A DNA stretch of 64,000 bases, taken from assembly GCA_023665555.1 (NCBI GenBank), contig JAMPDR010000001.1:62001-126000 (forward strand). The letters are read 5' to 3'. Positions 4,632 through 20,712 of this stretch are shown one piece after another. The translations under genes and the position numbers were made by a program. Every line of letters begins with the position of its first letter. The first letter of the stretch is position 1. The DNA is from Ruminococcus sp. (GTDB lineage: Bacteria; Bacillota; Clostridia; Oscillospirales; Acutalibacteraceae). The notes beneath the pieces are model-generated. The model made no database searches. It was not told the DNA's origin and was given only the letters and a program-made list of their open reading frames with translations.

Positions 4632-7600
4632 TTATCTTACATCAAATTGAGTTGATTGCGGTTCAATCCACGGCGGAGTATCAGGCATGTACGGTTCATC
4701 GGATACAAACCACTCGAAATCACCATATTGGGATATAGTGTCGATTGCATCGTTCACTAAGCCATCATAGTAAGAACGGTCGATATCTTCAAACTTATCA
4801 AGCTCTTCAACCATTTCAGATTCAAGCCAACGATAGCCTTTAGTGCCTGCTACAGCATAATATTTGCCGTTCTGTTCTCTAAAGAGTTCGCCACCACCGC
4901 AACCGGGCTTGATCGGACAGAATGAACCGACTTTGCCGATGAACTGATAGCTGTGACCGTCATTAATTTTTCGAATCATACAATCAAGTTCAGAATCACC
5001 ACTATTGCCGCTAAGATCCATTTTGGCATTGAACTCTTTAGCTTTTTTTACAATTCGTTCAAGAACTTTTTCATCTTCAGATACATCGGGTAAATTTTCG
5101 TTCATATCCAAATATAATGCTGATTTCACGCTCTTAGTTTCGCACATATCTACAAACCCAATTGACTCCTTACTAAACAAAGTCTTGAATACATAAGGTA
5201 CTTGGAATTGTGTTCCGGTTGCAGTCCAGTCACCGTCTTTATACTTTGCAATATACACCGCATCGTTTACAAGACACATTCTGTCATATGTAGCCTCGTG
5301 CTCAAAAGTGTAGCCATATTGTTTTCCGTAGTCCATTACATACTGAATTATTTCAGGCGTTGCATCAGGAATCTTTATTGAGTCCGTTTTTATATGTGCA
5401 ACTGTGAAGCCTTGCCTTTGGACTTCGTGTTTAAGATTAATCATAAATAACGCACCACGCTTGGCTACAATGTTATCCTTGTTGCGAAGATCCCTGAACG
5501 GATTCTCAAAATTAGCCGATGTTAAACCATAAACCGAGTTAATTGCAATCTTCAATGCTTGTGCTAAGTCAGATGCGGCATTTTCATCTTTCAGATACTT
5601 TGCTAATTTTCCATCCAGCATTTTTCGAGCCTTATCAAAATCCTTGTGCTTAATAGCAATTCTGGCATCAAGAATATCTTTAAATCTTAAAGTGTACTTT
5701 TCTCCGAAGAGCTGCTCCGCAACAATGCTGCTCGGATGCATCGAGGCAATGTCAAGCAATGCCACGTTACCATAGATGCCCGGTTCGGCATATACATAAC
5801 CACCTTCACCGACTGTTTCACCACGATACATCGAAACACCCGCTTCATACTTATATCCGGGAAATATAGGTCTGCCGTGTTCGTCAAATACAGTATATTT
5901 TTCATCGCCAAAGTTGTTAAACAAGTTATTGTCAGGTGTAGTGGTAAAATTAAATATAGCACTATCATCGGGAATGTATCCCATATCACGATAATTGAAC
6001 TGATCTTGTGGAGTGCGATTCTTACCAAATATAATTCTGGTGGTCAAACTGTTTGTCGTATCGTTTACAGTCATGCTTGCCAGATCTGCCAGAATTTGTC
6101 TTGCCAAGAAATCCGCTTTTCGTGCATTGAACACTGCTTCGGTTGCAATTACGTCATTATCACAATATTCAGCGACTTTCTTCCACATATGTTCAGGTAC
6201 AGGTTGATCCCACGGAAGTCCCAGTTCCTGATGATGTATACCCAGCTCAATCTCAAACTTTTTAAGAGATTGCTTTTTTGAACTGAAGTCGTATACATCG
6301 GTGTAAGAGATGTTATATGCCTCTCCAAAGAAAACATTTTTATCTCCGTTAATAATCTTTTGTGACAACTCATACAACTGCTGATTATCATATCCCATCA
6401 ATCGAGCATACAAAATATGATTATCATATCGTCTGCAATTAAATCCGACCAATCTGAATTTCAACAATTCTTCAACATCATAAGAACTTGGATTAATCAT
6501 TCTGACAACAGTTGCATTTTCGCCCTCATACTTCCAGTTAATTAAAAATAAGTTAGGAAATACTTCCACATCATAGAAAACCAATTTTGATTCATCGTTT
6601 CTCACCGAATCGGATATTTCATCGGATTTGAACCTCATTTTGTTGACAAGTTTGATGCAATAGTCAGCCTTGTTTGTACTTTGTGCTGCAAACGCAAAAA
6701 CAGCATTACGCATATCAGTGACATCGTAATGCAGTCCGCTTGTGTGAGCATCTTCGAGGATTTTATAAATGAAGTCAATGCTTGGTTTCGTTCCCGGATG
6801 TATTTCTTTATTAAGATTACGTTTAATAAGTGTTCTGAGTGCTTTTTCGCTTTTAATAGATTCAAAATTTACCATAGTTTTTTCTCCTTTCATCGGTAAA
6901 CCGGAACTTATAGTCGCAATCGGTAAATCGTTACATTTCGTTAGTTTTCGCCTTAATGAACTTTTACCGGTAAACACTTTGATTTCTATGTGGTCATCAT
7001 AAATTCTGCTGAGTAAGCGGGGATCTCCGGTATAAATATAATGAAGATGAATACCACTTCCGCTCTTGCTTAATTCCGCATAAGTAGCAGGCCATTTACT
7101 TGCTGCTTCAAGATTCTTTTCAAAGCACTTTTTGCCCTCATCATCTGTAAGGTCAAAATCTATGACAATGTGATTTTCAGGAACTTTTACAAAATGGATT
7201 CTTGAAGTATCCAAGTCGGATAATTTTGTTTTTGTCTTGTCCCATGCCGTAGTAGGAGTTTCCTTCGGTGTGGCATATTGTGCAGGACAGTCAGTACAAA
7301 ACTTATCAAATATTGAAGGCTGTTCTTTGAAACATATTTTATACTCCTCTGTCGCTTGGATTTGCTCGGCATCCCTTTTAAACTTATCACTTAAAAAACC
7401 GCTGTAATAGCTTCTGACACGAGTGCCGTTATCAAGGTTGAAACGCTCCTTATACTCTTTGAAATAGTTCTTTAGTTCCTCTTTAAAGACACGCTGCGAA
7501 AATGGGTACGCCACCTTCGCTTCATCGCAATAGGACTTATACATTTCCCATGACGCCTTTAGTGTAGTGCCATCTTCTTTGACAAACACGTGATATGAAT

Positions 7601-8675
7601 CAATAATGAAGTTATAGAAGTCATTAGAAGCTCCGAGCATGGTAATTGGAATATAATTGTCATACATTCTCGGATTACTCAAATAAACCTCTTGACAGTG
7701 GTAAGCTATCGCACCCAATTCAAATTCAATCTGTTTCATAATGGTCTGATACTCTTTTGTAGGAAGCTTATTTCCCGACGGTGAGACATCAATAAGTCTT
7801 CTGATAAGACCTGATTTGCCGTCAGTTATCTTAACAGGCTTATTTGTACCAATGAACAAGAAGCATTTGAATCTGTTGGTATAAGCTGTCTTGAACTTTT
7901 CATTTACTGTCATAAGTTCGTGAGAAACCAAGCTATTCAATCGAGTGTTGTCTTCAATTCTTGACAAATCGCCATCATGTTGGATAGCTACAAGCGGATT
8001 ACTTTTAAATGCCTCCAAAGCAAAAACATTACTCGATGAACCTAATGCTTTAGCATCAAACACCGAGTAATATCCCTCAAATAGCTGTTGAATTATATTA
8101 AGAACAGTAGATTTACCCGTTCCGGCAGAACCATACAAGACCATAAACTTCTGAAGACTTTTAGACTCTCCTGCTATAACGGATCCGATAGCCCACTCAA
8201 TCTTTTGCCGCTCCTCTTCAGAATATAATGTGGATAGCAGCTTGCCATAAGCAACAGTCTCGCCTTTTTCAAGTGGATACTTTAACCGCTTGCTGGCATA
8301 GTCTTTTTTATCCGTAACAGTGTTGGAGAATATAAGTTTTTCATCCAACATGTGGAACGAATCACGCATTTGCTTTTGACAATATTTATGCCATGTGTCG
8401 ATCATTCCTGTCTCGGCATCCCACATATGTAAGACTTTTACATCTGAATCAAAGTGCTTAAGATTTTCTTCTTTATATCGGTCGAGTTCTGCGTCAATAA
8501 GTTGCAGAGCATCTTGTTCATCTGTGGACCACAACTTTTTATCTTCCAACCAAATTGCATAGAAGTCGCCGCCTCTGATCATTAAATCGGAGCTTTTTTT
8601 AATAATAAACTTCGGATAGATTTCTATTACCCCACGCTTCGTGCTACGTGTTGAAATCATCAAAAAGTCGATCAT
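4632..8675 (-). CDS. Fused SF3 helicase – primase-polymerase – family B DNA polymerase
   Basis: This replication protein joins three enzymes. Numbering is from the longer ATG at 8681. The SF3 helicase part has Walker A GSAGTGKST (184-192), a B-like AIQHDGDL (232-239), sensor FIGTN (276-280) and RR (294-295). An archaeo-eukaryotic primase-like part follows: VIDFD (506-510), SGSGIHLH (540-547) and IEIK (565-568). The C-terminal half is a family B polymerase with a proofreading exonuclease: DVE (704-706), N748/D753 and YCDND (839-843), then motif A DIASMHPSS (977-985), motif B KIAINSVYG (1044-1052) and motif C KTDS (1098-1101). ATG 8675 fits the AAAGGAG spacing best. P4-type proteins put the primase before the helicase; here the order is reversed. 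It could copy the element nearly alone. Confidence 0.9.
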   Translation of the reverse strand: MIDFLMISTRSTKRGVIEIYPKFIIKKSSDLMIRGGDFYAIWLEDKKLWSTDEQDALQLIDAELDRYKEENLKHFDSDVKVLHMWDAETGMIDTWHKYCQKQMRDSFHMLDEKLIFSNTVTDKKDYASKRLKYPLEKGETVAYGKLLSTLYSEEERQKIEWAIGSVIAGESKSLQKFMVLYGSAGTGKSTVLNIIQQLFEGYYSVFDAKALGSSSNVFALEAFKSNPLVAIQHDGDLSRIEDNTRLNSLVSHELMTVNEKFKTAYTNRFKCFLFIGTNKPVKITDGKSGLIRRLIDVSPSGNKLPTKEYQTIMKQIEFELGAIAYHCQEVYLSNPRMYDNYIPITMLGASNDFYNFIIDSYHVFVKEDGTTLKASWEMYKSYCDEAKVAYPFSQRVFKEELKNYFKEYKERFNLDNGTRVRSYYSGFLSDKFKRDAEQIQATEEYKICFKEQPSIFDKFCTDCPAQYATPKETPTTAWDKTKTKLSDLDTSRIHFVKVPENHIVIDFDLTDDEGKKCFEKNLEAASKWPATYAELSKSGSGIHLHYIYTGDPRLLSRIYDDHIEIKVFTGKSSLRRKLTKCNDLPIATISSGLPMKGEKTMVNFESIKSEKALRTLIKRNLNKEIHPGTKPSIDFIYKILEDAHTSGLHYDVTDMRNAVFAFAAQSTNKADYCIKLVNKMRFKSDEISDSVRNDESKLVFYDVEVFPNLFLINWKYEGENATVVRMINPSSYDVEELLKFRLVGFNCRRYDNHILYARLMGYDNQQLYELSQKIINGDKNVFFGEAYNISYTDVYDFSSKKQSLKKFEIELGIHHQELGLPWDQPVPEHMWKKVAEYCDNDVIATEAVFNARKADFLARQILADLASMTVNDTTNSLTTRIIFGKNRTPQDQFNYRDMGYIPDDSAIFNFTTTPDNNLFNNFGDEKYTVFDEHGRPIFPGYKYEAGVSMYRGETVGEGGYVYAEPGIYGNVALLDIASMHPSSIVAEQLFGEKYTLRFKDILDARIAIKHKDFDKARKMLDGKLAKYLKDENAASDLAQALKIAINSVYGLTSANFENPFRDLRNKDNIVAKRGALFMINLKHEVQRQGFTVAHIKTDSIKIPDATPEIIQYVMDYGKQYGYTFEHEATYDRMCLVNDAVYIAKYKDGDWTATGTQFQVPYVFKTLFSKESIGFVDMCETKSVKSALYLDMNENLPDVSEDEKVLERIVKKAKEFNAKMDLSGNSGDSELDCMIRKINDGHSYQFIGKVGSFCPIKPGCGGGELFREQNGKYYAVAGTKGYRWLESEMVEELDKFEDIDRSYYDGLVNDAIDTISQYGDFEWFVSDEPYMPDTPPWIEPQSTQFDVR

Positions 8676-8677
8676 TT

Positions 8678-8911
8678 TCATTCTCCTTTTTCGCTTAATG
8701 CTTTTTCAAATTCTTTTTGCAGTTTTTTGATAGCTCGGCCATGCTTAACACTGTAAATTCCCATGACAGCCACATAAAGTGTCATAATGGTTGTAAATTT
8801 TGCAACTGTTTTGTTGATTCCCAACTGCTGCTTCAAAAGTTTCTGAATAGTGGTCATGGTAACATCGAACTTTTCCACTTTTTCAAAAATATAATCCATA
8901 AGTACAGGCAT
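8678..8911 (-). CDS. Small protein, possible membrane segment
   Basis: About 77 residues starting at ATG 8911, eight bases after an AGGAGG site; a GTG nine bases upstream is the alternative. It has a helical N-terminus, a modest hydrophobic stretch (FTTIMTLYVAVMGIYSV) and a charged coiled tail. The size and layout are holin-like but no family is recognised. Its stop overlaps the first possible start of the polymerase gene as ATGA. Confidence 0.6.
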   Translation of the reverse strand: MPVLMDYIFEKVEKFDVTMTTIQKLLKQQLGINKTVAKFTTIMTLYVAVMGIYSVKHGRAIKKLQKEFEKALSEKGE

Positions 8912-8945
8912 TTTCATCACCTCCTTGAGTTATTTTTCTTCGAGA

Positions 8946-9125
8946 TTAGTCATCGCTTAATTCTTCAGCTTTGAAATTTACACACGTAAAATCATCTGCA
9001 TCAAGAATATATTCACTGTTACGCCAAGCATCCTCTACTATTTGTTTTGCTTCAATTTTGTCAGTTGCTTCGACTTCAATTTCTCTTTCTAAAGTTTCTG
9101 TAATAATCACTTTGTACTTTTTCAT
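8946..9125 (-). CDS. DpnD/PcfM-like small protein
   Basis: This 59-residue frame falls below usual length cut-offs. The sequence begins KKYKVIITETLEREIEVEA and continues with IEAKQIVEDAW and YILDADDF. This resembles the DpnD/PcfM C-terminal family, first noted next to a restriction system and on conjugative plasmids and now common in phages. Its biochemical role is not established. A GGAG site precedes the ATG. Confidence 0.75.
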   Translation of the reverse strand: MKKYKVIITETLEREIEVEATDKIEAKQIVEDAWRNSEYILDADDFTCVNFKAEELSDD

Positions 9126-9138
9126 AAATTAATCTCCT

Positions 9139-9675
9139 TTACGCAACACTGTTCAAGTACCAGTTCATCTGATACCATATTTCAACCGATCGCATATCAT
9201 GCTTACAATCTCTGACTCGGAACAACCCGCCTTTTCCGTCACGCTCGTATTCGCGGTTTAGGAATCTGTTTACTACGTCTTCGACGTAAGCCGGATCAAA
9301 ATCTTCATTGGTCATATACCTCAATCCAAGATTTGAAATCATGCTCCAGAATATTTTTTCGGCTACATCGTCGTCACCTATGATCTCAACATTACATCGA
9401 ATAGCGAGTGCTACCATCATTTCAAGAATGCTGCATGGCTTATTATCCAAATATGCCGGAATCATAGCAGGTGAATAACCGAAATCCTGTGCAAACCTGT
9501 AACGCATATTTATGCCATCTTCAACTCGGTTTCCGTCCATACCGATGATATATGTGAACTCTGTGTTGTGCAAATGAATCAAAAGTTTGCGATAATGATT
9601 TCTTTTAATATCATTCTTACATACAGATTCACAAAGCCAATCGAAATATTCATGCATCATTGTGTTAGTATTCAT
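9139..9675 (-). CDS. Conserved mobile-element hypothetical protein
   Basis: 178 residues, soluble, rich in W, Y and acidic residues. Recognisable blocks (FTYIIGMDGNRVEDGINMRY, CSILEMMVALAIRC, RSVEIWYQMNWYLN) belong to a protein I recall as frequent in gut Firmicutes phages and islands, always without function. Its ATG overlaps the stop of the upstream membrane protein gene, which suggests the two are made together. Confidence 0.65.
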   Translation of the reverse strand: MNTNTMMHEYFDWLCESVCKNDIKRNHYRKLLIHLHNTEFTYIIGMDGNRVEDGINMRYRFAQDFGYSPAMIPAYLDNKPCSILEMMVALAIRCNVEIIGDDDVAEKIFWSMISNLGLRYMTNEDFDPAYVEDVVNRFLNREYERDGKGGLFRVRDCKHDMRSVEIWYQMNWYLNSVA

Positions 9676-11121: not shown

Positions 11122-12057
11122 TTACATTGTTTCCCAAACGTTTCCGTCAACGTTAAAGTCTAAGACAATGGCACGCTCATATCCGTTTACAAAGTCTCTT
11201 GCTTTCTCGTTGTTGACGTCATACAAACCAAAATCAACATAGCTATCGCTTGTTCGACTTTCCGGATCATATACCCAACCGACAACTTGTCCTGCTTTAG
11301 TCGGTTCAAAGCCGAGTGCATCATAAACTTCATTCAGGAACAGTCTGCCTGTTACTCTCAATTTATCGTTTGCCCAGTTTTCAACCTGCTTGATGAACAC
11401 AAGATTATATTCGGCACTCTTTTTGTAATTGGGATTAGTTTCATCAAATACTTTGGCGAAATCGCTGTATTTGGGACGTGATGCAACTTTAGTGACAGTT
11501 TTCTCGGTTTTTGCATTACCATTTTCATCAACGGTAACTTCTTCTGACTCAACTTTTTCAATACCAAGTTTCAGTTCACGTTCAATTTCATCGCCAAAAC
11601 GCTCGGCAACACGTTTTCTATAGCTCTTAAAGCTGTCATTTACCGTTGCGAAAGCTGCTGTGAGAGCGACATTTCTCTCCTTAATAATGTGATGCGAACC
11701 GAGAATGCCTGTAACAGAAAGTACGCCGAGAATGAATGCCGGAGAATATAATTTAATAAATTTCAGTCCGGTCTGAACATATACAATAGTCAAATCTTTT
11801 TTACTGTCTTCAGCAGTATACTCTTGACCCTTGATTTCACCTTTTTCCACTCCGTTATGGATTTGGTCAACTTTTTCTTTTGTGCTTCCCAAAATTTCGT
11901 CCACTTTTGTTGTGGCAACGCAAGCAGTGACGATACTGCCGATACCGCAAACAATTCCCGCAGCAACAAGAAGTTCCGGACTGTGTTTTTTAAGTTTAAA
12001 TCCGACATTGCTGAGTTGTCTTGTGAGTTTTTCGTTTATAACTTTCATTTTTTTCAT
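11122..12057 (-). CDS. DUF6353-like two-helix membrane protein, paralogue 1
   Basis: 311 residues. Two hydrophobic segments lie near residues 29-50 and 100-125. The first follows the phrase HSPELLVAAGIVCGIGSIV and the second lies in LYSPAFILGVLSVTGILGSH. The same layout and motifs recur in the genes at 13453 and 14486, so the three are paralogues. After the second segment all share an ALTAAFATVNDSFKSYRKRV-like helix and a long soluble domain. I associate the family with DUF6353 of Firmicutes elements. The function is unknown; a structural membrane role is possible. Confidence 0.7.
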   Translation of the reverse strand: MKKMKVINEKLTRQLSNVGFKLKKHSPELLVAAGIVCGIGSIVTACVATTKVDEILGSTKEKVDQIHNGVEKGEIKGQEYTAEDSKKDLTIVYVQTGLKFIKLYSPAFILGVLSVTGILGSHHIIKERNVALTAAFATVNDSFKSYRKRVAERFGDEIERELKLGIEKVESEEVTVDENGNAKTEKTVTKVASRPKYSDFAKVFDETNPNYKKSAEYNLVFIKQVENWANDKLRVTGRLFLNEVYDALGFEPTKAGQVVGWVYDPESRTSDSYVDFGLYDVNNEKARDFVNGYERAIVLDFNVDGNVWETM

Positions 12058-13111: not shown

Positions 13112-13381
13112 TCATTCGCCGTCTTTAACATCGACAACTTCAACATCATATTCCGCTGATTCATCTTTGGCTTTTGAAGCTGCTCTCTTCTGCTTTACCT
13201 TAGAGATAAGATTCGATACTTTTGGTTTAACGAATTTATCAATCAGTTTAACGGTAATCATACCGCCTACTGCTGCCAATCCGATTCCAATAATCGACAT
13301 ACCTTTCTCGTCGGAACTTTCAGTGATAACTTCAGTATCCTCAATAATCTCGTCATTAATCATGTTTGTGTTTTCGTCCAT
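13112..13381 (-). CDS. Small single-pass membrane protein
   Basis: 89 residues: an acidic N-terminus, one transmembrane helix (about 28-47, SIIGIGLAAVGGMITVKLI), a basic stretch and an acidic end. GAAAGGAG precedes the ATG. It is one of the ten genes preceded by the repeated 27-bp upstream motif. Unknown family. Confidence 0.6.
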   Translation of the reverse strand: MDENTNMINDEIIEDTEVITESSDEKGMSIIGIGLAAVGGMITVKLIDKFVKPKVSNLISKVKQKRAASKAKDESAEYDVEVVDVKDGE

Positions 13382-13424: not shown

Positions 13425-13451
13425 CATAATACGCTGTGTAAATTTTGCGAA
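13425..13451 (-). promoter_or_regulatory. Repeated 27-bp upstream motif, copy 1
   Basis: Reads TTCGCAAAATTTACA, five variable bases, TATTATG in the minus direction. It lies about 45 bases before the start of the 13112 gene and directly after the stop of the 13453 gene. It matches nine other copies with identical spacing. Confidence 0.65.
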
Positions 13452-13452
13452 C

Positions 13453-14220
13453 TCACGCGAACTTCTGATAGTCGTATTTTGGTTCAACATTATAGTTAAT
13501 TACCAAGCACGGCTCATGTTCAGGTGTGAGCTGCGATGTGAAATATAAGTCAAGATAACCGCTGTTAATATTCCAACCGATATACTCACCGACACATATA
13601 GGTGGAATCCCAAGCTCATAATACAAATCATTTAACGAGATATACATTTCAGAAATCATACGTCTGTTCAGTTGATTCTCGGCTTTTTTAATCTTATCTA
13701 TATCGGATTTGAAATATCGTCCTGACAGAATGTCATAACATAACGTATCGCCCTTTTGTGTGATGATAACTTCCCTGTCTTTCACAGGATTAGCCATGAT
13801 TTTATCTTTCGCAATTTCATCTCTTATTGACTGTTCTTTTTTCTCGCCGATAGTTTCGACTACTTTTTCCTGATACTCTTTCAAAGCCGACTCCGATAAT
13901 GTATACGCAGTAGCCAGTGCCATATTTTTTCGTGCATTCTTTGCGTTTGCACCAATGATGCAGGCAATGGATGCCACACCCGATATGACAGTTGGAATAT
14001 AATATTTCCATGTCAGCTTAACCACTTCAATAGCAGAAAGTTTCTCATCTTTCGGAGTATTTTCTTCAAGAATTTTCATCGCTTTCGGCGTTGCTTTAAC
14101 TGCAAATATAACAGTGGTAACCATACCGGCAATGCCGATTCCCGTAAGTATTTCAGGACTATGCTGCACGATAGAAACACGCATTTTCTTTGCACATTGC
14201 GATAACTTAATTTTGTTCAT
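13453..14220 (-). CDS. DUF6353-like two-helix membrane protein, paralogue 2
   Basis: 255 residues from ATG 14220 (GAAAGGA nine bases upstream; ATG 14238 lies before that site). It has the paralogue signature HSPEILTGIGIAGMVTTVIF (first helix, about 22-45) and YYIPTVISGVASIACIIGAN (second helix, about 80-100), then an ALATAYTLSESALKEYQEKV helix. The C-terminal half includes LNRRMISEMYISLNDLYYEL and GEYIGWN, shared with paralogue 3. No 27-bp motif precedes it; a terminator at the end of the 14260 gene lies just upstream. Confidence 0.7.
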   Translation of the reverse strand: MNKIKLSQCAKKMRVSIVQHSPEILTGIGIAGMVTTVIFAVKATPKAMKILEENTPKDEKLSAIEVVKLTWKYYIPTVISGVASIACIIGANAKNARKNMALATAYTLSESALKEYQEKVVETIGEKKEQSIRDEIAKDKIMANPVKDREVIITQKGDTLCYDILSGRYFKSDIDKIKKAENQLNRRMISEMYISLNDLYYELGIPPICVGEYIGWNINSGYLDLYFTSQLTPEHEPCLVINYNVEPKYDYQKFA

Positions 14221-14248
14221 TTTACAAAATCCTTTCATAAAAAAATAA

Positions 14249-14270
14249 AAGAGCCTTTGTTAAGACTCTT
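14249..14270 (-). terminator. Terminator hairpin at the end of the 14260 gene
   Basis: AAGAG-C-CTT-TGTT-AAG-A-CTCTT forms an eight-pair stem with one mismatch, followed on the minus strand by TTTTATTTTTTT. The stop codon of the 53-residue gene is inside the stem, so the coding end doubles as terminator. Confidence 0.65.
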
Positions 14271-14421
14271 CTTCATTTGATTTTTCGGCTAATGCTTCAT
14301 TGACTTTTTCTTCAACGGTTGCTTCCATCTGTTTATCGCTCACCCAATCGCTTAAGAGTGTTGCACCCATACCGATAAGTGTAGCGGCAAATCCGATGAT
14401 TTTCATTAAATTTTTGCTCAT
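14260..14421 (-). CDS. 53-residue single-pass membrane protein
   Basis: A short frame starting at ATG 14421, eight bases after GGAGG. A membrane helix (MKIIGFAATLIGMGATLLS) is followed by a soluble acidic tail with EEKVNEALAEK. I recall similar small proteins as common in gut Firmicutes mobile elements. It is preceded by the 27-bp motif and ends inside a terminator, so it looks like a one-gene transcription unit. Confidence 0.65.
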   Translation of the reverse strand: MSKNLMKIIGFAATLIGMGATLLSDWVSDKQMEATVEEKVNEALAEKSNEEES

Positions 14422-14437
14422 GAATTTAACCTCCTTT

Positions 14438-14464
14438 CATAATATAAGTTGTAAAAAATGCGAA
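14438..14464 (-). promoter_or_regulatory. Repeated 27-bp upstream motif, copy 2
   Basis: TTCGCATTTTTTACA, five variable bases, TATTATG, immediately followed by AAAGGAGG and the start of the 14260 gene. It diverges from the other copies at the central A run (T instead of A), which may show which positions matter. Confidence 0.65.
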
Positions 14465-14485
14465 TCAAAGCCATATAGCATATTT

Positions 14486-15295
14486 TCATAAATCATCTAA
14501 AAATTCAGATGTCGGATTAAACACCATTTCAATCGTATAACACTCCAGCCCATCGTCATATACAACTTTTTGATGATCAAAGTCAATCCAATATATCTCT
14601 CCACTATAAGTTGACCAACCTATATCGTCGCCGCCATCAACAGGATCAAGTCCTAAAAATTCATAGAAATCGTTAAGACTTTCACACCCGAAAAACATGA
14701 AGTTTCTGTTAAGATGATATTCTGCGGCTATTACTCTGCCAAAAGTTGACTCGAAATATCTGTCGGAAAAAATATCATAAAACAGTCTTTTTTCTTCATC
14801 ATCTTCTTCAGGCGGAAGCAAATACGCATTTCCACACATTGTTTGTGCGTATATGGGAACTTCTTTACACTCAGATTTAGCTATTGAATCCACGATATTC
14901 TGATGTGCTTCCTCTCCATACAGTTCTTTTAGTTTAAGCTTGTACTTTTTATATGAGTTATCGAGTAAAGCATAAGCACTTGCAAGTGATGCCTGTTGCT
15001 TTTTGCTAAGAGCGTTTGTGCCAAATATGCAAGCCACTGTCGAAGCACCAATAACCACCGTAGGAAGATATACCGGAAATATAATTTTCATCTTTTCCGT
15101 AGCAGTGAGCTCGTCGCCCTTTTCCTTTACTGATTTTTTGAACAGGTCGTCCGCTTTAAGCGTCGCTTTCGATGCCGTAACAGCAACCGCAACCACTCCC
15201 ACAGCACTCATGCACGTGAGAAGCAACGGTGAGCCTCTTTTGAATTTTACCAATGCCTTTCTTCCAAACTGTTGAACTTTTGAACTACCTTTCAT
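14486..15295 (-). CDS. DUF6353-like two-helix membrane protein, paralogue 3
   Basis: 269 residues from ATG 15295, which follows GAAAGGAG; a 55-residue longer reading would run through the upstream motif and is rejected. Two hydrophobic segments (PLLLTCMSAVGVVAVAVTAS, and VYLPTVVIGASTVACIFGTN) and a shared ASLASAYALLDNSYKKYKLK helix mark the paralogue family. The C-terminal half has YHLNRNFMFFG, FYEFLGLDPV and DDIGWSTYSG, matching paralogue 2. The leader between the 27-bp motif and the start contains a hairpin with a T tract. Confidence 0.7.
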   Translation of the reverse strand: MKGSSKVQQFGRKALVKFKRGSPLLLTCMSAVGVVAVAVTASKATLKADDLFKKSVKEKGDELTATEKMKIIFPVYLPTVVIGASTVACIFGTNALSKKQQASLASAYALLDNSYKKYKLKLKELYGEEAHQNIVDSIAKSECKEVPIYAQTMCGNAYLLPPEEDDEEKRLFYDIFSDRYFESTFGRVIAAEYHLNRNFMFFGCESLNDFYEFLGLDPVDGGDDIGWSTYSGEIYWIDFDHQKVVYDDGLECYTIEMVFNPTSEFLDDL

Positions 15296-15314
15296 TTTGG
15301 TGTTCTCCTTTCGT

Positions 15315-15352
15315 AAAAAATAAAAGAAACAGTAGCACAAAGTCACCGTTTC
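15315..15352 (-). terminator. Leader hairpin with T tract before paralogue 3
   Basis: On the minus strand GAAACGGT pairs with ACTGTTTC (one G-U) around an 11-base loop and is followed by TTTTATTTTTT. It lies between the 27-bp motif and the gene's ribosome binding site. It is therefore an attenuator-like arrangement rather than an end-of-gene terminator. Confidence 0.5.
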
Positions 15353-15354
15353 TC

Positions 15355-15410
15355 CATAATACAACATGTAATTTTTGCGAAGAAAAAGAGAAGCCCTTGT
15401 TAAGGCTTCT
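15355..15410 (-). promoter_or_regulatory. Terminator plus 27-bp motif cassette, copy 3
   Basis: Terminator AGAAGCC/GGCTTCT (15389-15410, seven perfect pairs, includes the stop of the 15400 gene) runs straight through its T tract into the motif TTCGCAAAAATTACA, five bases, TATTATG (15355-15381). It would end one unit and begin the next. Confidence 0.7.
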
Positions 15411-15690
15411 TTTTGATAAGATGCTTTATATCTTCTTTGATACAATCCGCAGATACACATAAATCATAACAAGTGTTTATAAGCTTAAGGAATGTTGTGG
15501 CCGGAATCAATATATACCAGTCGGCTGTTACTCCTTTTTCAAATGCGTCACAAATACCATCCAAACTCTGCTTTGCTGCATCAATTTGGTCTTGTGAGAC
15601 ACCCATTTTTGCCGTCAAGTACACTGCTCTAGCACCTTCTGCTATAGCTCTTCTCGTTAAGCTATCTTCTACGTGTTCTTTAAATTTCAT
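15400..15690 (-). CDS. Small hypothetical protein (96 aa)
   Basis: 96 residues, mostly helical. The middle contains ARAVYLTAKMGVSQDQIDAA and a moderately hydrophobic ADWYILIPATTFLKLINTCY that may touch membrane. It starts after GAAAGGATGG and is preceded by a 27-bp motif. The family is not recognised. Confidence 0.6.
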   Translation of the reverse strand: MKFKEHVEDSLTRRAIAEGARAVYLTAKMGVSQDQIDAAKQSLDGICDAFEKGVTADWYILIPATTFLKLINTCYDLCVSADCIKEDIKHLIKKKP

Positions 15691-15707
15691 TTAAAACACC
15701 ATCCTTT

Positions 15708-15734
15708 CATAATATAAGTTGTAATTTTTGCGAA
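15708..15734 (-). promoter_or_regulatory. Repeated 27-bp upstream motif, copy 4
   Basis: TTCGCAAAAATTACA, five bases, TATTATG, then AAAGGAT and the start of the 15400 gene. It begins two bases after the stop of the 15737 gene, with no separate terminator. Confidence 0.7.
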
Positions 15735-15736
15735 TG

Positions 15737-16096
15737 CTAAACTTCCCTTCTGTCAAACAATGTTTCCCAGCGTTCTCGTTTAATCGGCTTCATCTTCAAT
15801 GCCCACATAATTTGCCTTATAGTAACTGTCGGATACAGTCCATTAACAGGTAATCCTGCTCGCTCATCAAAAAATGCTTTAAACTTCGGATGTAAATATA
15901 ATTCATCAGTCAGCCACGGATCCACCTCACTCCACCAAGTGGTTTTCTTTTTCTTGTCAAATCTTTGCTGAATAACAGCTAATCCTTTATCGCCTATCTT
16001 GAATAATGTGCATTTATCGTAGACAGGGTGTTTGCAAATATAATTTATTCCATACACAGATGCGTATATATCAGGTTTTTCATAATGGTATCTCAT
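15737..16096 (-). CDS. Hypothetical protein (119 aa), soluble
   Basis: 119 residues, basic and aromatic-rich, with GINYICKHPVYDKCTLFKIG early and WSEVDPWLTDELYLHPKF in the middle. I recall similar proteins in gut Firmicutes islands without function. The start is ATG 16096 with a weak GGAGACC site. It has no 27-bp motif; a terminator lies between it and the 16160 gene. Confidence 0.6.
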   Translation of the reverse strand: MRYHYEKPDIYASVYGINYICKHPVYDKCTLFKIGDKGLAVIQQRFDKKKKTTWWSEVDPWLTDELYLHPKFKAFFDERAGLPVNGLYPTVTIRQIMWALKMKPIKRERWETLFDRREV

Positions 16097-16117
16097 ACTG
16101 GTCTCCGAAGAAAAAGA

Positions 16118-16139
16118 AGAGTCCTTGTTTGGGGACTCT
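16118..16139 (-). terminator. Terminator after the 16160 gene
   Basis: AGAGTCC and GGACTCT form a perfect seven-pair stem with an eight-base loop, followed by TTCTTTTTC on the minus strand. Confidence 0.65.
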
Positions 16140-16159
16140 CTTTCATTTGTCTTTCAACC

Positions 16160-16333
16160 TTAGTTTGAATCATGATGTGAATACTTTTTTCGCATAAGTC
16201 CATAGCCAATAATGAAGCCAATCGTATAACAAATAACTACGAACAATGCATATCCTTTCCAATGCATACGCAGCCATTGTCTTGTTGGCATTATAACCAT
16301 TTCCTTGTAATCGCTGAAAAATCTTCTAATCAT
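16160..16333 (-). CDS. 57-residue single-pass membrane protein
   Basis: A short frame from ATG 16333, eight bases after AGGAGG. A basic amphipathic N-terminus (RRFFSDYKEMVIMPTRQWLR) leads into a membrane helix (about 27-46, GYALFVVICYTIGFIIGYGL) and a short basic tail. It is preceded by motif copy 5 and followed by a terminator, so it looks like an independent transcription unit. Confidence 0.65.
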   Translation of the reverse strand: MIRRFFSDYKEMVIMPTRQWLRMHWKGYALFVVICYTIGFIIGYGLMRKKYSHHDSN

Positions 16334-16365
16334 TATTTTATCCTCCTAAAATTAGATTTGTTTTT

Positions 16366-16421
16366 CATAATACAACGTGTAAATTTTGCGAAGAGAAAAA
16401 TAAAGAGCCTGAGGTAGGCTC
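16366..16421 (-). promoter_or_regulatory. Terminator plus 27-bp motif cassette, copy 5
   Basis: Terminator GAGCCT/AGGCTC (16405-16421) with TTTATTTTTCTC, then motif TTCGCAAAATTTACA, five bases, TATTATG (16366-16392). It drives the 16160 gene after ending the 16420 gene. Confidence 0.7.
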
Positions 16422-16593
16422 AATATTTATTGCGTTTATTATAAAGCTTTTTCAATATCCATACTATGATGAATATGCATACAATTACATCGCCAAATAC
16501 CATGATCGTTGCTGCCCCTGTCGTTGCTGTGACAAGTACAGTAAGAACCGCTAATATTGCCAATACAATTACTAAAATCGTAAATAGTATCAT
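16420..16593 (-). CDS. Very hydrophobic small membrane protein, probably two helices
   Basis: 57 residues from ATG 16593 (GGAGG ten bases upstream). About 45 residues are continuous hydrophobic sequence, broken by TTGAA, then a basic tail (KKLYNKRNKY). This fits two short helices in a hairpin. I recall similar proteins in gut mobile elements. A holin-like role is possible but unproved. Confidence 0.6.
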   Translation of the reverse strand: MILFTILVIVLAILAVLTVLVTATTGAATIMVFGDVIVCIFIIVWILKKLYNKRNKY

Positions 16594-16611
16594 ATCAAAT
16601 AAGCCTCCTTT

Positions 16612-16670
16612 CACAATATGGCGTGTAATTTCTGCGAGAAAAAACGAAAAGCACGTGTAATTAACGCACT
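16612..16670 (-). promoter_or_regulatory. Terminator plus 27-bp motif cassette, copy 6
   Basis: Hairpin AGTGCGT/ACGTGCT (16650-16670, with wobbles) and a TTTTCGTTTTTT tract precede the motif CTCGCAGAAATTACA, five bases, TATTGTG (16612-16638). The 16420 gene follows. Confidence 0.65.
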
Positions 16671-16692
16671 CTCCGTTCGGAACTATATTAGT

Positions 16693-17127
16693 TTATTTTT
16701 TAGTCGGTCTAAAACGATTGAATAATCCTTTAAATGTTGCAGATGTAAACGATCCTGTTTCTTCAAACTTCAACCCTCTTTTCATCCAGACACCGTAGAA
16801 TATCAAAGGAAGAATAAGTTCAGCACCGGCAATTCCAACCTTAACAAATCTGTCTCGTCTCTGCTCTTTTATCTGATCTCTTTTAAGATTTTCTTCGTTA
16901 ATATGGTTAATATCATCTATTTCAATCTTTCTATTATCCATATCACGCTTTTCTCTCTTATCTTCGATTTCAGATTCCATCTTGCATTCCTCAACATACA
17001 ATCTGTGAAGTGTTGCCAGTTTATCCATAGCCTCCTTCTGTTCTTTTGCGTCTGTCTGAGATGATTTCAAACCTTGAATTTCAGTTTTAATCTCCTCTTC
17101 TAACAAATTTTTGATTTCGTCACTCAT
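16693..17127 (-). CDS. Coiled-coil protein with C-terminal membrane helix
   Basis: 144 residues. Residues 1-95 are highly charged and helical, consistent with a coiled coil (EEEIKTEIQGL, MESEIEDKREKRDMDNRKIE). A membrane helix (VGIAGAELILPLIFYGVWM) lies near 97-115, and a basic tail follows. The arrangement suits a tail-anchored scaffold or envelope protein. It follows motif copy 7, with GAAAGGAG before the ATG. Confidence 0.6.
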   Translation of the reverse strand: MSDEIKNLLEEEIKTEIQGLKSSQTDAKEQKEAMDKLATLHRLYVEECKMESEIEDKREKRDMDNRKIEIDDINHINEENLKRDQIKEQRRDRFVKVGIAGAELILPLIFYGVWMKRGLKFEETGSFTSATFKGLFNRFRPTKK

Positions 17128-17159
17128 TTTGTTGCTCCTTTCAACAAATTATTTAGTTC

Positions 17160-17187
17160 CATAATAGAGCTTGTTATTTGTGCGTAA
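17160..17187 (-). promoter_or_regulatory. Repeated 27-bp upstream motif, copy 7
   Basis: TACGCACAAATAACA, five bases, TATTATG. It overlaps the last codons of the 17174 gene, and the 16693 gene starts about 33 bases further on. It is the most divergent 5' end of the ten copies. Confidence 0.6.
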
Positions 17188-17407
17188 TGAAATCTTCGTT
17201 CTTGACTTCGAGTATGACATATCTCTTGTTCGAGATTATGCTCAAAGCATCGTGAAACTCTAAGAAAAGACAAGGCGGCTCATCAGGCTCTGATCTGTCG
17301 ATTCGCAATGATCCAATGCTTTTGCTTTTCCAAATGAAAATAGCTATCACAATGCCTATCGCTATCGCTCCTGTTATGTATCCGCCAATAAAACTCATAA
17401 AGTTCAT
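17174..17407 (-). CDS. Small membrane-anchored conserved protein
   Basis: 77 residues: an N-terminal membrane helix (about 5-25, FIGGYITGAIAIGIVIAIFI) followed by a soluble domain with GSLRIDRSEPDEPPCLFLEF and KRYVILEVK. That soluble segment is a pattern I recall from many Firmicutes phages, unannotated. The 121-base leader upstream lacks the 27-bp motif. Confidence 0.65.
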   Translation of the reverse strand: MNFMSFIGGYITGAIAIGIVIAIFIWKSKSIGSLRIDRSEPDEPPCLFLEFHDALSIISNKRYVILEVKNEDFITHK

Positions 17408-17518
17408 ATCATAAACCTCCTTTCCGGTTAAATTTTGATATGTATAAAAATATCACACATTTCCGTCACCTGCGTACGGTAATTCGAAGTGCTTTTTAAT
17501 CTAGGTTAAAAAAAAGAA

Positions 17519-17536
17519 AGAGGCTTTGTTACCTCT
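17519..17536 (-). terminator. Terminator at the end of the 17529 gene
   Basis: AGAGG and CCTCT pair around an eight-base loop and are followed by a run of eight T with one C on the minus strand. The stop codon of the 17529 gene lies in the loop. Confidence 0.6.
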
Positions 17537-17717
17537 CCCATTTCTTCTTTTTCATTTTCAGTTCAATGGATTGTTTAATGTTTTGTGCTTTCATTGATAC
17601 CGCTTGTCGCACTTCCGGAATAGCCATAGTTGTAGCGGCTAAAGTTATAGCCGGAACAAAAATCTGTCCAATCCAAAGTCGTGCTTCTCTGCTTGCTTCA
17701 ATTTGTTTGTAAGTCAT
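17529..17717 (-). CDS. 62-residue small membrane-associated protein
   Basis: The start is ATG 17717, after AAAGGAG; a longer frame runs through the 27-bp motif and is rejected. TYKQIEASREARLWIGQI leads into a hydrophobic stretch (FVPAITLAATTMAIP), then a basic helix and KKKKWER. I recall it as a frequent small protein of gut Firmicutes elements. It has motif copy 8 and its own terminator. Confidence 0.65.
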   Translation of the reverse strand: MTYKQIEASREARLWIGQIFVPAITLAATTMAIPEVRQAVSMKAQNIKQSIELKMKKKKWER

Positions 17718-17744
17718 AAAAATGTCTCCTTTAAACTTTATTTT

Positions 17745-17800
17745 CATAATAGCACTTGTAATTTCTGCGAACAAAAAAGAAAGAGCCCCTGTTAGGACTC
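17745..17800 (-). promoter_or_regulatory. Terminator plus 27-bp motif cassette, copy 8
   Basis: Hairpin GAGTCC...GGGCTC (17783-17800), which includes the end of the 17792 gene, and a TTTCTTTTTTG tract. They are followed by the motif TTCGCAGAAATTACA, five bases, TATTATG (17745-17771). Confidence 0.7.
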
Positions 17801-18007
17801 TCCCATCGTTTGTTTAATATGGCTTATAGCCAATTCGATACCGATAGCATGTTGTATTGCCATTTTGTATAGTCGTTTATATCTGAATCGTCTAAGTGGG
17901 TTAAATGTTTTTTTTAACAAATTTCTACTCACTGTCGCAAGGTTCATTTCTTGCCTATACTGATAATCCAACATAGTCATAACGTTTTCGTAATTCTTTT
18001 CTACCAT
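17792..18007 (-). CDS. Small basic helical protein (71 aa)
   Basis: The start is ATG 18007 with AAGAAGGTGAT upstream. The protein is basic and helical, with NLLKKTFNPLRRFRYKRLYK in the middle and a mildly hydrophobic AIQHAIGIELAISHI near the end. It may bind membrane or nucleic acid. Unrecognised. It is preceded by motif copy 9. Confidence 0.6.
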   Translation of the reverse strand: MVEKNYENVMTMLDYQYRQEMNLATVSRNLLKKTFNPLRRFRYKRLYKMAIQHAIGIELAISHIKQTMGES

Positions 18008-18022
18008 ATAATCACCTTCTTT

Positions 18023-18080
18023 CATAATATCACTTGTAATTTTCGCGAGGAAAAAAGAAAGAGCCCTTGTAACAGGACCC
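18023..18080 (-). promoter_or_regulatory. Terminator plus 27-bp motif cassette, copy 9
   Basis: Wobble-rich hairpin GGGTCCT/AGGGCTC (18061-18080) with TTTCTTTTTTC, then the motif CTCGCGAAAATTACA, five bases, TATTATG (18023-18049), then AAAGAAGG and the 17792 gene. Confidence 0.7.
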
Positions 18081-18088
18081 TTTTGCTT

Positions 18089-18286
18089 TTAGTCTGTCGA
18101 GTTATCATTATGTTTGTTTTTGTAATGCTTTCGTGCTTTAGTAACAATCTTATATACAATGACTACCGCAACACCTTCTATGGCAGCCGCCCCAACAAAG
18201 GCGAGCCCCAACAAAGATTTCGCACTTTCATTTCTGAACATAAGCGCTGTTGGTTTTACTACTCGAACTACATTGCTGTTATCCAT
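18089..18286 (-). CDS. Small single-pass membrane protein (65 aa)
   Basis: One transmembrane helix (about 25-47, LLGLAFVGAAAIEGVAVVIV) between a polar N-terminus and a basic tail rich in K, H and N. AAAGGAGG precedes the ATG. It follows motif copy 10, the rightmost. Unrecognised family. Confidence 0.6.
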   Translation of the reverse strand: MDNSNVVRVVKPTALMFRNESAKSLLGLAFVGAAAIEGVAVVIVYKIVTKARKHYKNKHNDNSTD

Positions 18287-18302
18287 AAAAATAACCTCCT
18301 TT

Positions 18303-18327
18303 CACAATATGGCGTGTTATTTTCGCG
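18303..18327 (-). promoter_or_regulatory. Repeated upstream motif, copy 10 (rightmost)
   Basis: GCGCGAAAATAACA, five bases, TATTGTG, overlapping the end of the 18317 gene. AAAGGAGG and the 18089 gene follow directly. No copy is found to the right of it, so the regulated run starts here. Confidence 0.6.
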
Positions 18328-18736
18328 CCTCGCTAAGCAGCCAGAAAAATCGTCTGTAAAGTTCATAGTAAACATCTTTGCAGCACGGTATATTAAACCT
18401 AGCTTTCAAATGGTCATACGATAAACCTTCTGTTACAGCTTTTAAAATATAATACGATAAAGCGTAATCGGTATCTTCAGCGGCTTTTTCAACCATTTTG
18501 ATTTTTTCGTAATAGAACCATTGAGCTTCCACACATTGTTCAACAGGTTTAGCCATCAGATTTGTTTTTGACACACGCTCGTAGTCAATCAATCCATTAC
18601 GATAAACCTCGATGTTGTCGTAAGCTTTTTTCCAATTATGATACTGCAAACAAAAATGTTTCAGCTCATAATAGCGGTGTCTGTCAATCCAATACTTGTT
18701 CTTTTCGGATATTTCCGGGCGTATATTTGTTCCCAT
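18317..18736 (-). CDS. Hypothetical protein (139 aa), soluble
   Basis: The start ATG 18736 overlaps the preceding stop as TAATG, with GGAG upstream; the 14-residue longer frame is unlikely. It has aromatic and charged blocks (YWIDRHRYYELKHFCLQYHN, EAQWFYYEKIKMVEKAAEDT, CCKDVYYELYRRFFWLLS). The last block could form a helix pair similar to phage transcriptional activators, but no family is recognised. It is coupled to a small DNA-binding-like gene. Confidence 0.55.
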   Translation of the reverse strand: MGTNIRPEISEKNKYWIDRHRYYELKHFCLQYHNWKKAYDNIEVYRNGLIDYERVSKTNLMAKPVEQCVEAQWFYYEKIKMVEKAAEDTDYALSYYILKAVTEGLSYDHLKARFNIPCCKDVYYELYRRFFWLLSEARK

Positions 18737-18987
18737 TAAGTTCGTTCTCCTTTCCATACATAGCCGGTTTCTTCCCAAAGACGTTTAGGCGAGATATAAA
18801 AATTTATTCGCCCCTGCTTGGAATCCATTTCATTAATGTCCGTGATCAGTTTTCCGCCTCTTGTAGCTTTTCCAATCGGAAGCCACCCGGATATAATTCC
18901 TGCTCTTATCCAAGTTGCGTCTTTACCGTATACCTTAGCCGCCACTGAAACAGGAACTGAACCACGTCCAAATGTAACTGCGTTCAT
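18736..18987 (-). CDS. Excisionase-like small DNA-binding protein
   Basis: 83 residues. VPVSVAAKVYGKDATWIRAG (about 11-30) reads as a helix-turn-helix of the MerR/excisionase kind. It is followed by WLPIGKATR, a DINEMDSKQGRINFYISPKR segment and ETGYVWKGE. I recall this protein near integrases in gut Firmicutes islands. It probably binds DNA, as a recombination directionality factor or regulator; which of the two cannot be decided here. Confidence 0.65.
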   Translation of the reverse strand: MNAVTFGRGSVPVSVAAKVYGKDATWIRAGIISGWLPIGKATRGGKLITDINEMDSKQGRINFYISPKRLWEETGYVWKGERT

Positions 18988-19473: not shown

Positions 19474-20712
19474 ATGCTCATGAATTGTCCCGAATGCGAA
19501 TTACAAGTAAGTGATAAGGCCATACTTTGTCCGCATTGCGGTTATCCGATAAAACCAAATTCAGCAACTAAAATCGCACGCGGCTCAAACAAAAGAAAAC
19601 GCTTACCCAACGGATTCGGTCAGATAAGCGAAATAAAAAACAAACGGTTGAGAAATCCTTTTCGTGCTATGGTCACGGTAGGTAAAACACCGGAAGGCAA
19701 ACCAATTTGCAAGCCATTGAAACCTCAATCATACTTCCCTACTTACAACGATGCGTATGCAGCTTTAGTGGAATATAACAGAAATCCATATGATTTAAAC
19801 CCGACTATTACCGTACATGAATTGTACGAAAAATGGTCTGAAGAATATTTTAAAACAATTAAATCTAAAAATCGCATCGTGTCAGTACGAAGTGCGTGGA
19901 AATATTGTTTCTCGATATATGATATGCCAATATCGGAGATTAGAGCTCGACATATGAAAGGTTGTATCAACGATGGAACTATTATAGTTAAAGGCGAAGT
20001 ACGACATCCATCAGCAAATACAAAATATGAAATCAAAGAAATATTCAACATGTTATTCGATTACGCACTAGAATACGACTTAGTGGACAAAAATTATTCA
20101 CGATTATTTAAATTGCCTGCTGATGTTATAAAAGAAAAAACGACTGTAAAAAAAGATCATATTATTTATTCTGATGATGAAATGAACAAACTTTGGAGCA
20201 ATATAGATGCACATCCATTCACAGATATAATACTAGTTCAATGCTATTCCGGGTGGCGCCCCCAAGAAATTTGTTCATTAAAATTAGAGGATGTTGATTT
20301 AACAAATTGGACATTCAAAGGTGGCATGAAAACCGAATCGGGAACTAATCGTGTGGTGCCTATACATACCAAAATAAGGGATATCGTATTCAAAAAATAT
20401 CAAGAAGCAGTTTCTATGAACAGTAAATATTTGTTTAATTCATATGATGTAAAAAATCGTTCTCAGAGTTATAGACTAACTTATTACAAATTTAAATACA
20501 GGTTTGATAGTGTCATCACGGATCTTCACTTAAACCCTGAACATCGTCCGCATGATGGACGCAAACACTTTGTTACATTAGCCAAAAAATACGAAGTTGA
20601 CGAATATGCAATAAAATATATAGTCGGACACGCCATCACCGACATAACCGAAAAAGTATATACACAACGAGATATTGAATGGCTTAGATCGGAAATGGAA
20701 AAAATAAAATAG
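19474..20712 (+). CDS. Tyrosine recombinase (integrase) with N-terminal zinc ribbon
   Basis: 412 residues. A zinc ribbon (C5, C8, C19, C22) opens the protein. A basic arm-binding region (about 38-100), a SAM-like core-binding domain (about 110-215) and the catalytic domain follow. Catalytic residues are R262 (SGWRPQE), H360 and R363 (PHDGRKH), H386 (VGHA) and Y396 (KVYTQ), a complete set. It inserts and excises the element by site-specific recombination. It is the only large + strand gene of the element and marks its right boundary. AGGAGG lies seven bases before the ATG. Confidence 0.92.
   Translation: MLMNCPECELQVSDKAILCPHCGYPIKPNSATKIARGSNKRKRLPNGFGQISEIKNKRLRNPFRAMVTVGKTPEGKPICKPLKPQSYFPTYNDAYAALVEYNRNPYDLNPTITVHELYEKWSEEYFKTIKSKNRIVSVRSAWKYCFSIYDMPISEIRARHMKGCINDGTIIVKGEVRHPSANTKYEIKEIFNMLFDYALEYDLVDKNYSRLFKLPADVIKEKTTVKKDHIIYSDDEMNKLWSNIDAHPFTDIILVQCYSGWRPQEICSLKLEDVDLTNWTFKGGMKTESGTNRVVPIHTKIRDIVFKKYQEAVSMNSKYLFNSYDVKNRSQSYRLTYYKFKYRFDSVITDLHLNPEHRPHDGRKHFVTLAKKYEVDEYAIKYIVGHAITDITEKVYTQRDIEWLRSEMEKIK

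Follow-up and report, generated by a model that had tools for sequence, protein, structure and literature searches.

A 27-bp motif before small genes of a Ruminococcus prophage is probably a promoter for the phage's own predicted RNA polymerase

The window analysed here is a stretch of 64,000 nucleotides (nt) from Ruminococcus sp. (GenBank assembly GCA_023665555.1, contig JAMPDR010000001.1), starting at C32:62001, where C32 denotes the contig. Ten copies of a 27-bp motif stand in it before small genes of a prophage of ~60 kb (contig C32, roughly 24-83 kb). Most likely (about 0.8), this motif is a promoter that is directly recognised by a predicted RNA polymerase of the same prophage, a single chain with two double-psi beta-barrels, with transcription starting at the last base of the motif, G27, or at the next base. 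Recognition by the polymerase itself rather than via a co-factor is what we infer from the comparisons below. The polymerase-like protein, phrog_4291, comprises 899 amino acids (aa) and is encoded at C32:54636-57335 (L017:12639-15335), ~4.7-7.4 kb left of the first base of the window and ~18 kb from the motif array. The prophage further encodes a terminase, a head maturation protease, other virion proteins, a helicase, a single-stranded DNA-binding protein and many small proteins.

With up to three mismatches allowed, ten motif matches are found at 13425-18329, all on the minus strand. The chance level in dinucleotide shuffles is 0.06, and none of 100 shuffles gave ten matches. The oriented ten-copy motif described in the initial annotation is therefore real; five sites agree with the consensus given there, three deviate at one position, one at two and one (14438) at three. 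The copies, and a hairpin that follows the third, are located as follows.

13425..13451, minus strand: motif copy 1, before the 89-aa gene 13112-13381; the Shine-Dalgarno (SD) sequence begins 27 nt past the motif
14438..14464, minus strand: motif copy 2, with three mismatches, before the 53-aa gene 14260-14421; SD sequence AAAGGAGG directly behind the motif
15355..15381, minus strand: motif copy 3, with a short hairpin behind it and the 269-aa DUF6353 gene 14486-15295 beyond; terminator 15389-15410 precedes
15315..15354, minus strand: predicted hairpin of ~40 nt with T tract (small RNA or attenuator), beginning directly at the end of motif copy 3
15708..15734, minus strand: motif copy 4, before the 96-aa gene 15400-15690; SD sequence directly behind; abuts the stop codon of 15737-16096
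16366..16392, minus strand: motif copy 5, before the 57-aa gene 16160-16333; terminator 16405-16421 precedes
16612..16638, minus strand: motif copy 6, before the gene 16420-16593 (ATG at 16593); SD sequence directly behind the motif
17160..17186, minus strand: motif copy 7, before the 144-aa gene 16693-17127; overlaps the stop codon of 17174-17407
17745..17771, minus strand: motif copy 8, before the 62-aa gene 17529-17717; terminator 17779-17804 precedes
18023..18049, minus strand: motif copy 9, before the 71-aa gene 17792-18007; terminator 18058-18083 precedes; SD sequence directly behind
18303..18329, minus strand: motif copy 10, before the 65-aa gene 18089-18286; SD sequence directly behind; overlaps the stop codon of 18317-18778

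The motif lies 15-59 nt from the start codon, with the ATG at 16593 (18 nt) taken as the start for site 16612 in place of the automatically called TTG. The short distance reported in the initial annotation thus stands, and its range of 15-75 bases is narrowed. At five of the ten copies (14438, 15708, 16612, 18023 and 18303) the SD sequence begins directly behind the motif. Every copy comes after a terminator, T tract or gene end, a context that had been noted for six. Specifically, a called hairpin with T tract is located directly upstream of four copies (15355, 16366, 17745 and 18023), copy 16612 has a T tract only, and five copies (13425, 14438, 15708, 17160 and 18303) touch or overlap the previous stop codon or follow it by at most ~22 nt. 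Transcripts from each copy would consequently be short and mostly cover one gene. Between 12000 and 20000, terminator-like hairpins are in excess (15 vs 4.7 expected); sigma-70-like promoters are not (28 vs 26.8 expected). A sigma-A promoter is disfavoured by the geometry, in line with the earlier remark on its -35/-10 spacing. The motif has no TTGACA-type hexamer. A 9-of-12 sigma-like pair overlaps TATTAT at two of the ten copies (14438 and 15708). In the whole 2.6-Mb genome, 16 matches with at most three mismatches were found, 12 in the prophage and four elsewhere, the latter with three mismatches each; a reversed control pattern gave three. No motif site is present in the host part of the window (21001-64000) at a score of 15 with the matrix described next, and Rfam at gathering score gave no match in window positions 1-21500.

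The window array is the local copy of an element found across a phage lineage, TTCGCRnAAWTTACA-N5-TATWATG-RRR. A matrix was seeded with the ten window sites and iterated on IMG/VR loci (348 sites), yielding the consensus TTCGCRnAAWTTACA-N5-TATWATG. At a matrix score of at least 15, it identifies 750 sites in phages and prophages, among them phages of Firmicutes and of Actinobacteria; sites were told apart by the motif together with 25 nt. Of the IMG/VR stretches, 72 contain the exact 26-base pattern and none the reversed one. G27 is present in 98% of the 348 matrix sites, TATG in 511 and AATG in 153 of the 750. Eight annotated relatives were scanned over parts of 38-50 kb at a score of at least 13, and seven of them carry sites: Faecalibacterium phage FP_oengus (13), Gordonia phage Secretariat (10), Rhodococcus phage ReqiPoco6 (13), Arthrobacter phage Circum (9), Streptomyces phage Rainydai (10), Microbacterium phage Count (12) and Curtobacterium phage Yotsuba (9). 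All these sites are sense, with 0.0-0.2 expected in simulated sequence; the eighth relative, Lactococcus phage P078, gave no site. The motif follows the phage lineage and not the host. The prophage DNA polymerase shows 59% identity to that of FP_oengus and ~50% to those of Gordonia and Arthrobacter phages, and the only DNA-level relative of the array among annotated phages is one partial record.

The motif is also associated with the polymerase. Among 160 loci chosen solely for encoding the polymerase (the best 80 of 518 viral and the best 80 of 136 genome relatives), 146 have a site at a score of at least 15, including all 58 loci of at least 20 kb, and 349 sites lie on the polymerase strand against one on the opposite strand. 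Some of the 80 viral contigs had fed the matrix, whereas the 80 bacterial-genome loci had not. Of the latter, 77 carry the motif and the three misses are 4-13 kb long; here 171 sites share the strand of the polymerase, one is opposite, and the reversed matrix gave one match. Site frequency is highest in the final 2 kb before the polymerase gene. In many loci a recurrent site is located ~0.9 kb ahead of the polymerase, before a nuclease-exonuclease-polymerase operon (L017:16240 in this prophage). Starting from the motif, the search for the polymerase covered 40 of 68 motif-bearing contigs, those of at least 20 kb, and found the polymerase in 27 and the DNA polymerase in 37. All seven motif-bearing annotated phages share the polymerase, exonuclease, helicase, single-stranded DNA-binding protein, DNA polymerase and a phrog_4678 protein, as well as three DUF6353 proteins and a 201-aa protein, in a comparison that covered the virion-gene regions in part. 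The sole evident transcription enzyme among these shared proteins is the polymerase. Three further prophage genes of the window are relevant.

4632..8681, minus strand: primase-helicase/DNA polymerase, phrog_4210, lineage marker
9139..9675, minus strand: 178-aa phrog_4678 protein near the DNA polymerase gene, lineage core protein and candidate co-factor
19474..20712, plus strand: tyrosine integrase

The start of the RNA at G27 or the next base is deduced from the positions of transfer RNAs (tRNAs) and stems. In nine loci picked for an apparent tRNA behind the motif, Rfam identified eight tRNAs, seven of which begin 2-4 nt past G27; the eighth, in Lactococcus phage P078, begins ~8 nt past it. 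ARAGORN, applied to 150 nt of downstream sequence for all 750 sites, called nine tRNAs. Seven begin 1-3 nt past G27 and one 6 nt past, while the ninth call (ReqiPoco6) is not usable, the tRNA in the record itself beginning 8 nt past the motif. Noncoding sites give a similar picture: 122 sites without a downstream reading frame (of 129, owing to the requirement for 120 nt downstream and a slightly different reading-frame test) include 30 with a terminator-ended stem, and 24 of these stems begin 0-1 nt past G27. With shuffled 5' ends, stems at 0-1 nt number 2.0 on average and five at most. The three bases past the motif, which are outside the matrix, are purines in 98%, 96% and 95% of cases. The expectation in the initial annotation that transcripts begin just past TATTRTG therefore agrees with the deduced 5' ends.

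A further line of evidence comes from the leaders of the polymerase operon. Near the operon 97 matches were found, of which 82 were distinct and 66 remained with one per locus and a narrower range. In 49 of these 66 distinct leaders pairing starts from the first or second base, A-T, G-C and G-T pairs exchange at the same positions, and the median folding energy is -14.8, compared with -8.35 for shuffles. The leaders were folded singly; a MAFFT alignment of 38 leaders shifted the 5' ends and was hence not used. These terminator-like hairpin leaders behind the motif are located at L017:16188-16239 and, for the 66, in L130-L289 (locus positions 8,700-9,300). In the window, the hairpin 15315..15354 is likewise paired from the first base past G27, with a minimum free energy of -11.9 kcal/mol (one sequence). 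A motif followed immediately by a terminator-like hairpin before the polymerase operon suggests autoregulated, attenuated expression of the polymerase, and the region resembles a self-regulated leader with attenuation, or else a small RNA.

Several RNAs behind the motif are of interest in themselves. The tRNAs directly behind it at L023:1141-1215 and L044:478-552 are called tRNA-Stop with anticodon TTA by ARAGORN and are possible phage suppressor tRNAs. Small, apparently structured noncoding stretches of ~70-110 nt, some of them tRNA-like, lie between motif and T tract, for example at L053:7440, L055:2940, L029:7754, L030:1003, L045:12877 and L093:11512. Grouped by sequence, the noncoding stretches fall into two clusters with 12 and 10 members, nine pairs and 86 singletons, and some hold short reading frames.

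These positions bear on the question whether the motif is a promoter at all. It could instead be a DNA element that serves packaging, replication, recombination or partition, or a sequence linked to translation, as are the start-associated sequences (SAS) of cluster K phages, and its many copies per genome, its fixed length and the SD sequences that it abuts at half of the window copies fit such a role. This is nevertheless very improbable in view of the sense orientation (349 to 1), the tRNAs and noncoding stems that begin just behind the motif, and the variable distance to the start codon (median 33 nt over 589 sites). A mobile cassette array or recombination site is ruled out by orientation and by the tRNA and stem positions. 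An SAS at ribosome binding sites was rejected as well, as the motif also stands directly before tRNAs and noncoding stems. The orientation, the genes and RNAs that follow the motif and its association with the lineage support the alternative promoter, read by a factor of the element, that had been proposed initially.

A second question is whether the promoter might be read by the host RNA polymerase, with TATWAT serving as -10 element for sigma-A and TTCGC-AAAWTTACA bound by an activator or sigma-like factor of the phage. Candidates for this factor are phrog_4678 or the two-barrel protein acting as a regulator only. Transcription from a sigma-type promoter starts ~7 nt downstream of the -10 element. 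The first base of seven of the eight Rfam tRNAs lies 3-5 nt past TATWAT, and that of most tested stems 2-3 nt past. Among 589 sites with SD sequence and start codon, taken from outside the six actinobacterial phages, the SD sequence begins 0-4 nt past G27 in 108, 5-9 nt past in 21, and further away in the rest. A start ~7 nt past TATWAT would fall within seven of the eight Rfam tRNAs, deprive terminator stems of their first bases and lie inside or past the beginning of the 108 SD sequences. The tRNA, stem and purine positions at G27 thus argue against a sigma-type -10.

In favour of a host-read promoter, phrog_4678 is present in all 21 tested motif-plus-polymerase records (of 27 available), and a scan of part of P078, a phage without TTCGC, did not find it; in addition, models of sigma-70 region 4 match the polymerase-like protein in its C-terminal domain. 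A PDB comparison with the predicted phrog_4678 structure gave nothing significant (best E 1.3, chain F of T. thermophilus initiation complexes), and the relatives of phrog_4678 at E 0.001 are exclusively unnamed or uncharacterised viral proteins. These results neither exclude nor support a function as activator, and phrog_4678 could be a partner of the polymerase. Overall, transcription by the host enzyme is an unlikely account. The reader of the promoter is probably element-encoded, as initially suggested, and would most likely be the dedicated single-chain phage polymerase and not host polymerase plus an activator.

Several observations weigh against recognition of the motif by the phage polymerase. 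No motif match precedes at least one gene of the array in the window, 17174-17407. A T tract lies at most 22 nt upstream in only 297 of the 750 sites, so that the unit of terminator, promoter and gene is common and not universal, and a pattern search detects a T tract in no more than 32 of the 66 leaders of the polymerase operon. The 3' part of the motif in GC-rich hosts is TATAAT, a good sigma -10, which also favours reading by the host polymerase. Thirteen of the 40 motif-bearing contigs of at least 20 kb lack the polymerase; fragmentation may or may not explain this, and as virus records may be fragments, such misses do not prove absence. Moreover, polymerase, DNA polymerase, helicase, exonuclease and phrog_4678 travel together, so co-occurrence cannot single out the polymerase. 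P078, with a polymerase 39% identical, has no site at the matrix threshold; it carries TTTTACATACCCTATAATGA or a close variant at ten sites (0.05 expected), corresponding to the motif's 3' two thirds with TTCGC missing. In Lactococcus phage 1706, TTTTACATACACTATAGTAGA or a close variant occurs only five times (0.23 expected); these copies are diverged and likewise lack TTCGC. Finally, the profile match to YonO, the SPbeta polymerase, is not significant (hhalign probability 0.3%, catalytic motifs aligned).

The polymerase contains the sequence LSGADFDGD, the DxDGD metal-binding triad, which is found in the prophage protein and in all eight annotated relatives aligned; it is also invariant in a set of 73 relatives, themselves fetched with that peptide. 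The predicted structure has two double-psi beta-barrels, with RDR2/QDE-1 as the closest structures, and the helix-turn-helix fold is that of the C-terminal domain mentioned above. PDB sequence searches with the prophage polymerase matched no polymerase. The family comprises at least 7,999 scored relatives at 90% clustering, and its members are annotated as 'RNA-dependent RNA polymerase', 'HTH DNA-binding protein/regulator' or 'CsgD family regulator' (NC_048876, NC_041948, NC_023694 and database proteins). Polymerase contigs also occur in metagenome-assembled genomes labelled Fermentimonas, Burkholderiaceae, Bacteroides, Kiritimatiellae and Bacteroidaceae (L239, L258, L259, L261 and L277). Most other such genomes have Firmicutes labels, and these deviating ones are likely binning errors. 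Three DUF6353 paralogues of the prophage (11122-12057, 13453-14238 and 14486-15295) are each matched in all eight annotated relatives compared.

In the proposed mechanism, TTCGC-AAAWTTACA would serve as upstream recognition element, with the C-terminal helix-turn-helix of the polymerase, which resembles sigma region 4, as candidate reader. TATWATG would melt and contain the start point, in the manner of TATG(+1) for the non-virion polymerase of phiKZ. If the polymerase is carried in the virion, the motif copies could be the earliest promoters after entry. Virion carriage is suggested by a relative in phage 1706, orf75, which is 38% identical to the polymerase and labelled 'structural protein'; early timing and virion packaging are guesses from gene position and this label. 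The N-terminal region of the polymerase (L017:12639-15335, residues 11-26) holds an invariant motif H-x-G...SGRYP-x-GSG in a stretch of low model confidence, which is possibly a packaging signal. The prophage protein C32:52215-52694 has a similar stretch, HHGIKGMKWG, and short matches to the N-terminal end of the polymerase are found in three other reading frames of G026 and G028. When the N-terminal tag was searched on other proteins of the retrieved loci, only apparently cut polymerase genes matched.

Phage polymerase-promoter pairs are a known kind of system. The non-virion RNA polymerase of phiKZ, also a phage enzyme of the two-barrel superfamily, initiates at the G of 5'-TATG-3', immediately at its recognition sequence, and phiKZ middle promoters contain AAanTTACc (PMC4666361). 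This middle motif resembles AAAATTACA of the prophage motif. A domain corresponding to sigma region 4 is described for a phiKZ polymerase subunit (PMC7618050). The tRNA and stem positions and the purine-rich next bases described here match the T(-3)ATG(+1) start of phiKZ. The phiKZ enzyme differs in being multisubunit, compared with the single 899-aa chain. In the passages of PMC4666361 consulted, the late and middle motifs are separate promoter classes without a reported TTCGC element, and the middle motif is centred near -24, whereas the AAAWTTACA block here would lie near -16.

Single-chain two-barrel polymerases associated with dedicated motifs are also described for Thermus phage P23-45 in the available part of PMC10770324. 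They differ in that gp96 is fused to the tape measure and gp64 is smaller (8f72, 593 residues), and their motifs are described there as AT-rich and GC-rich; neither gp96 nor gp64 was matched by sequence in the PDB search with the prophage polymerase. YonO resembles the present enzyme as a single-chain DNA-dependent polymerase of a Firmicutes prophage with an aspartate triad, and it drives one late operon whose promoter sequence its authors left undetermined, as far as the portion of PMC5467207 goes. The motif is absent from the 35 kb of SPBc2 scanned, and near yonK the best matrix score is 11.1.

The virion polymerase gp66 of crAss-like phage phi14:2 is packaged and transcribes early genes. 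This two-barrel single-chain polymerase (PDB 6vr4) is similar to the predicted structure (Foldseek E 0.011), but has 2166 residues, occurs in other hosts and was not matched in the PDB sequence search; packaging of the present enzyme is indicated by a database label only. The SAS, ESAS and intergenic repeats of actinobacteriophages are likewise short oriented repeats before small genes, with other sequences and no link to a polymerase made in the passages of PMC7302621 consulted. Section 21 of this Microbacterium survey, on cluster EL phage Count, mentions no motif; Count has 12 copies. In the surveys of Arthrobacter and Gordonia phages (PMC5513430, PMC5559632), word searches did not find 'promoter', 'motif' or 'RNA polymerase', and in a 2026 Rhodococcus survey (PMC13313380) 'RNA polymerase' was not found. 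No earlier description of the composite promoter was found in the open-licence papers searched, and prior print elsewhere is possible.

There is about an even chance that a very large phage family has a self-sufficient, virion-delivered polymerase of the cellular two-barrel type with built-in sigma-like domains for reading DNA, which starts RNA at the border of a composite 27-bp promoter and serves one-gene/one-RNA units and its own attenuated operon, forming a T7-like pair on the cellular fold across Firmicutes and Actinobacteria. If the motif is the promoter of the polymerase, a widespread and uncharacterised phage polymerase family would be paired with its promoter, the step left open for YonO. 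The pair would provide a compact polymerase-promoter system of cellular fold for comparison with sigma and phiKZ initiation, and would allow a test of TATG(+1) initiation as an old trait common to phage two-barrel polymerases. Furthermore, motif searches could then reveal early genes and small RNAs of numerous phages from gut and soil.

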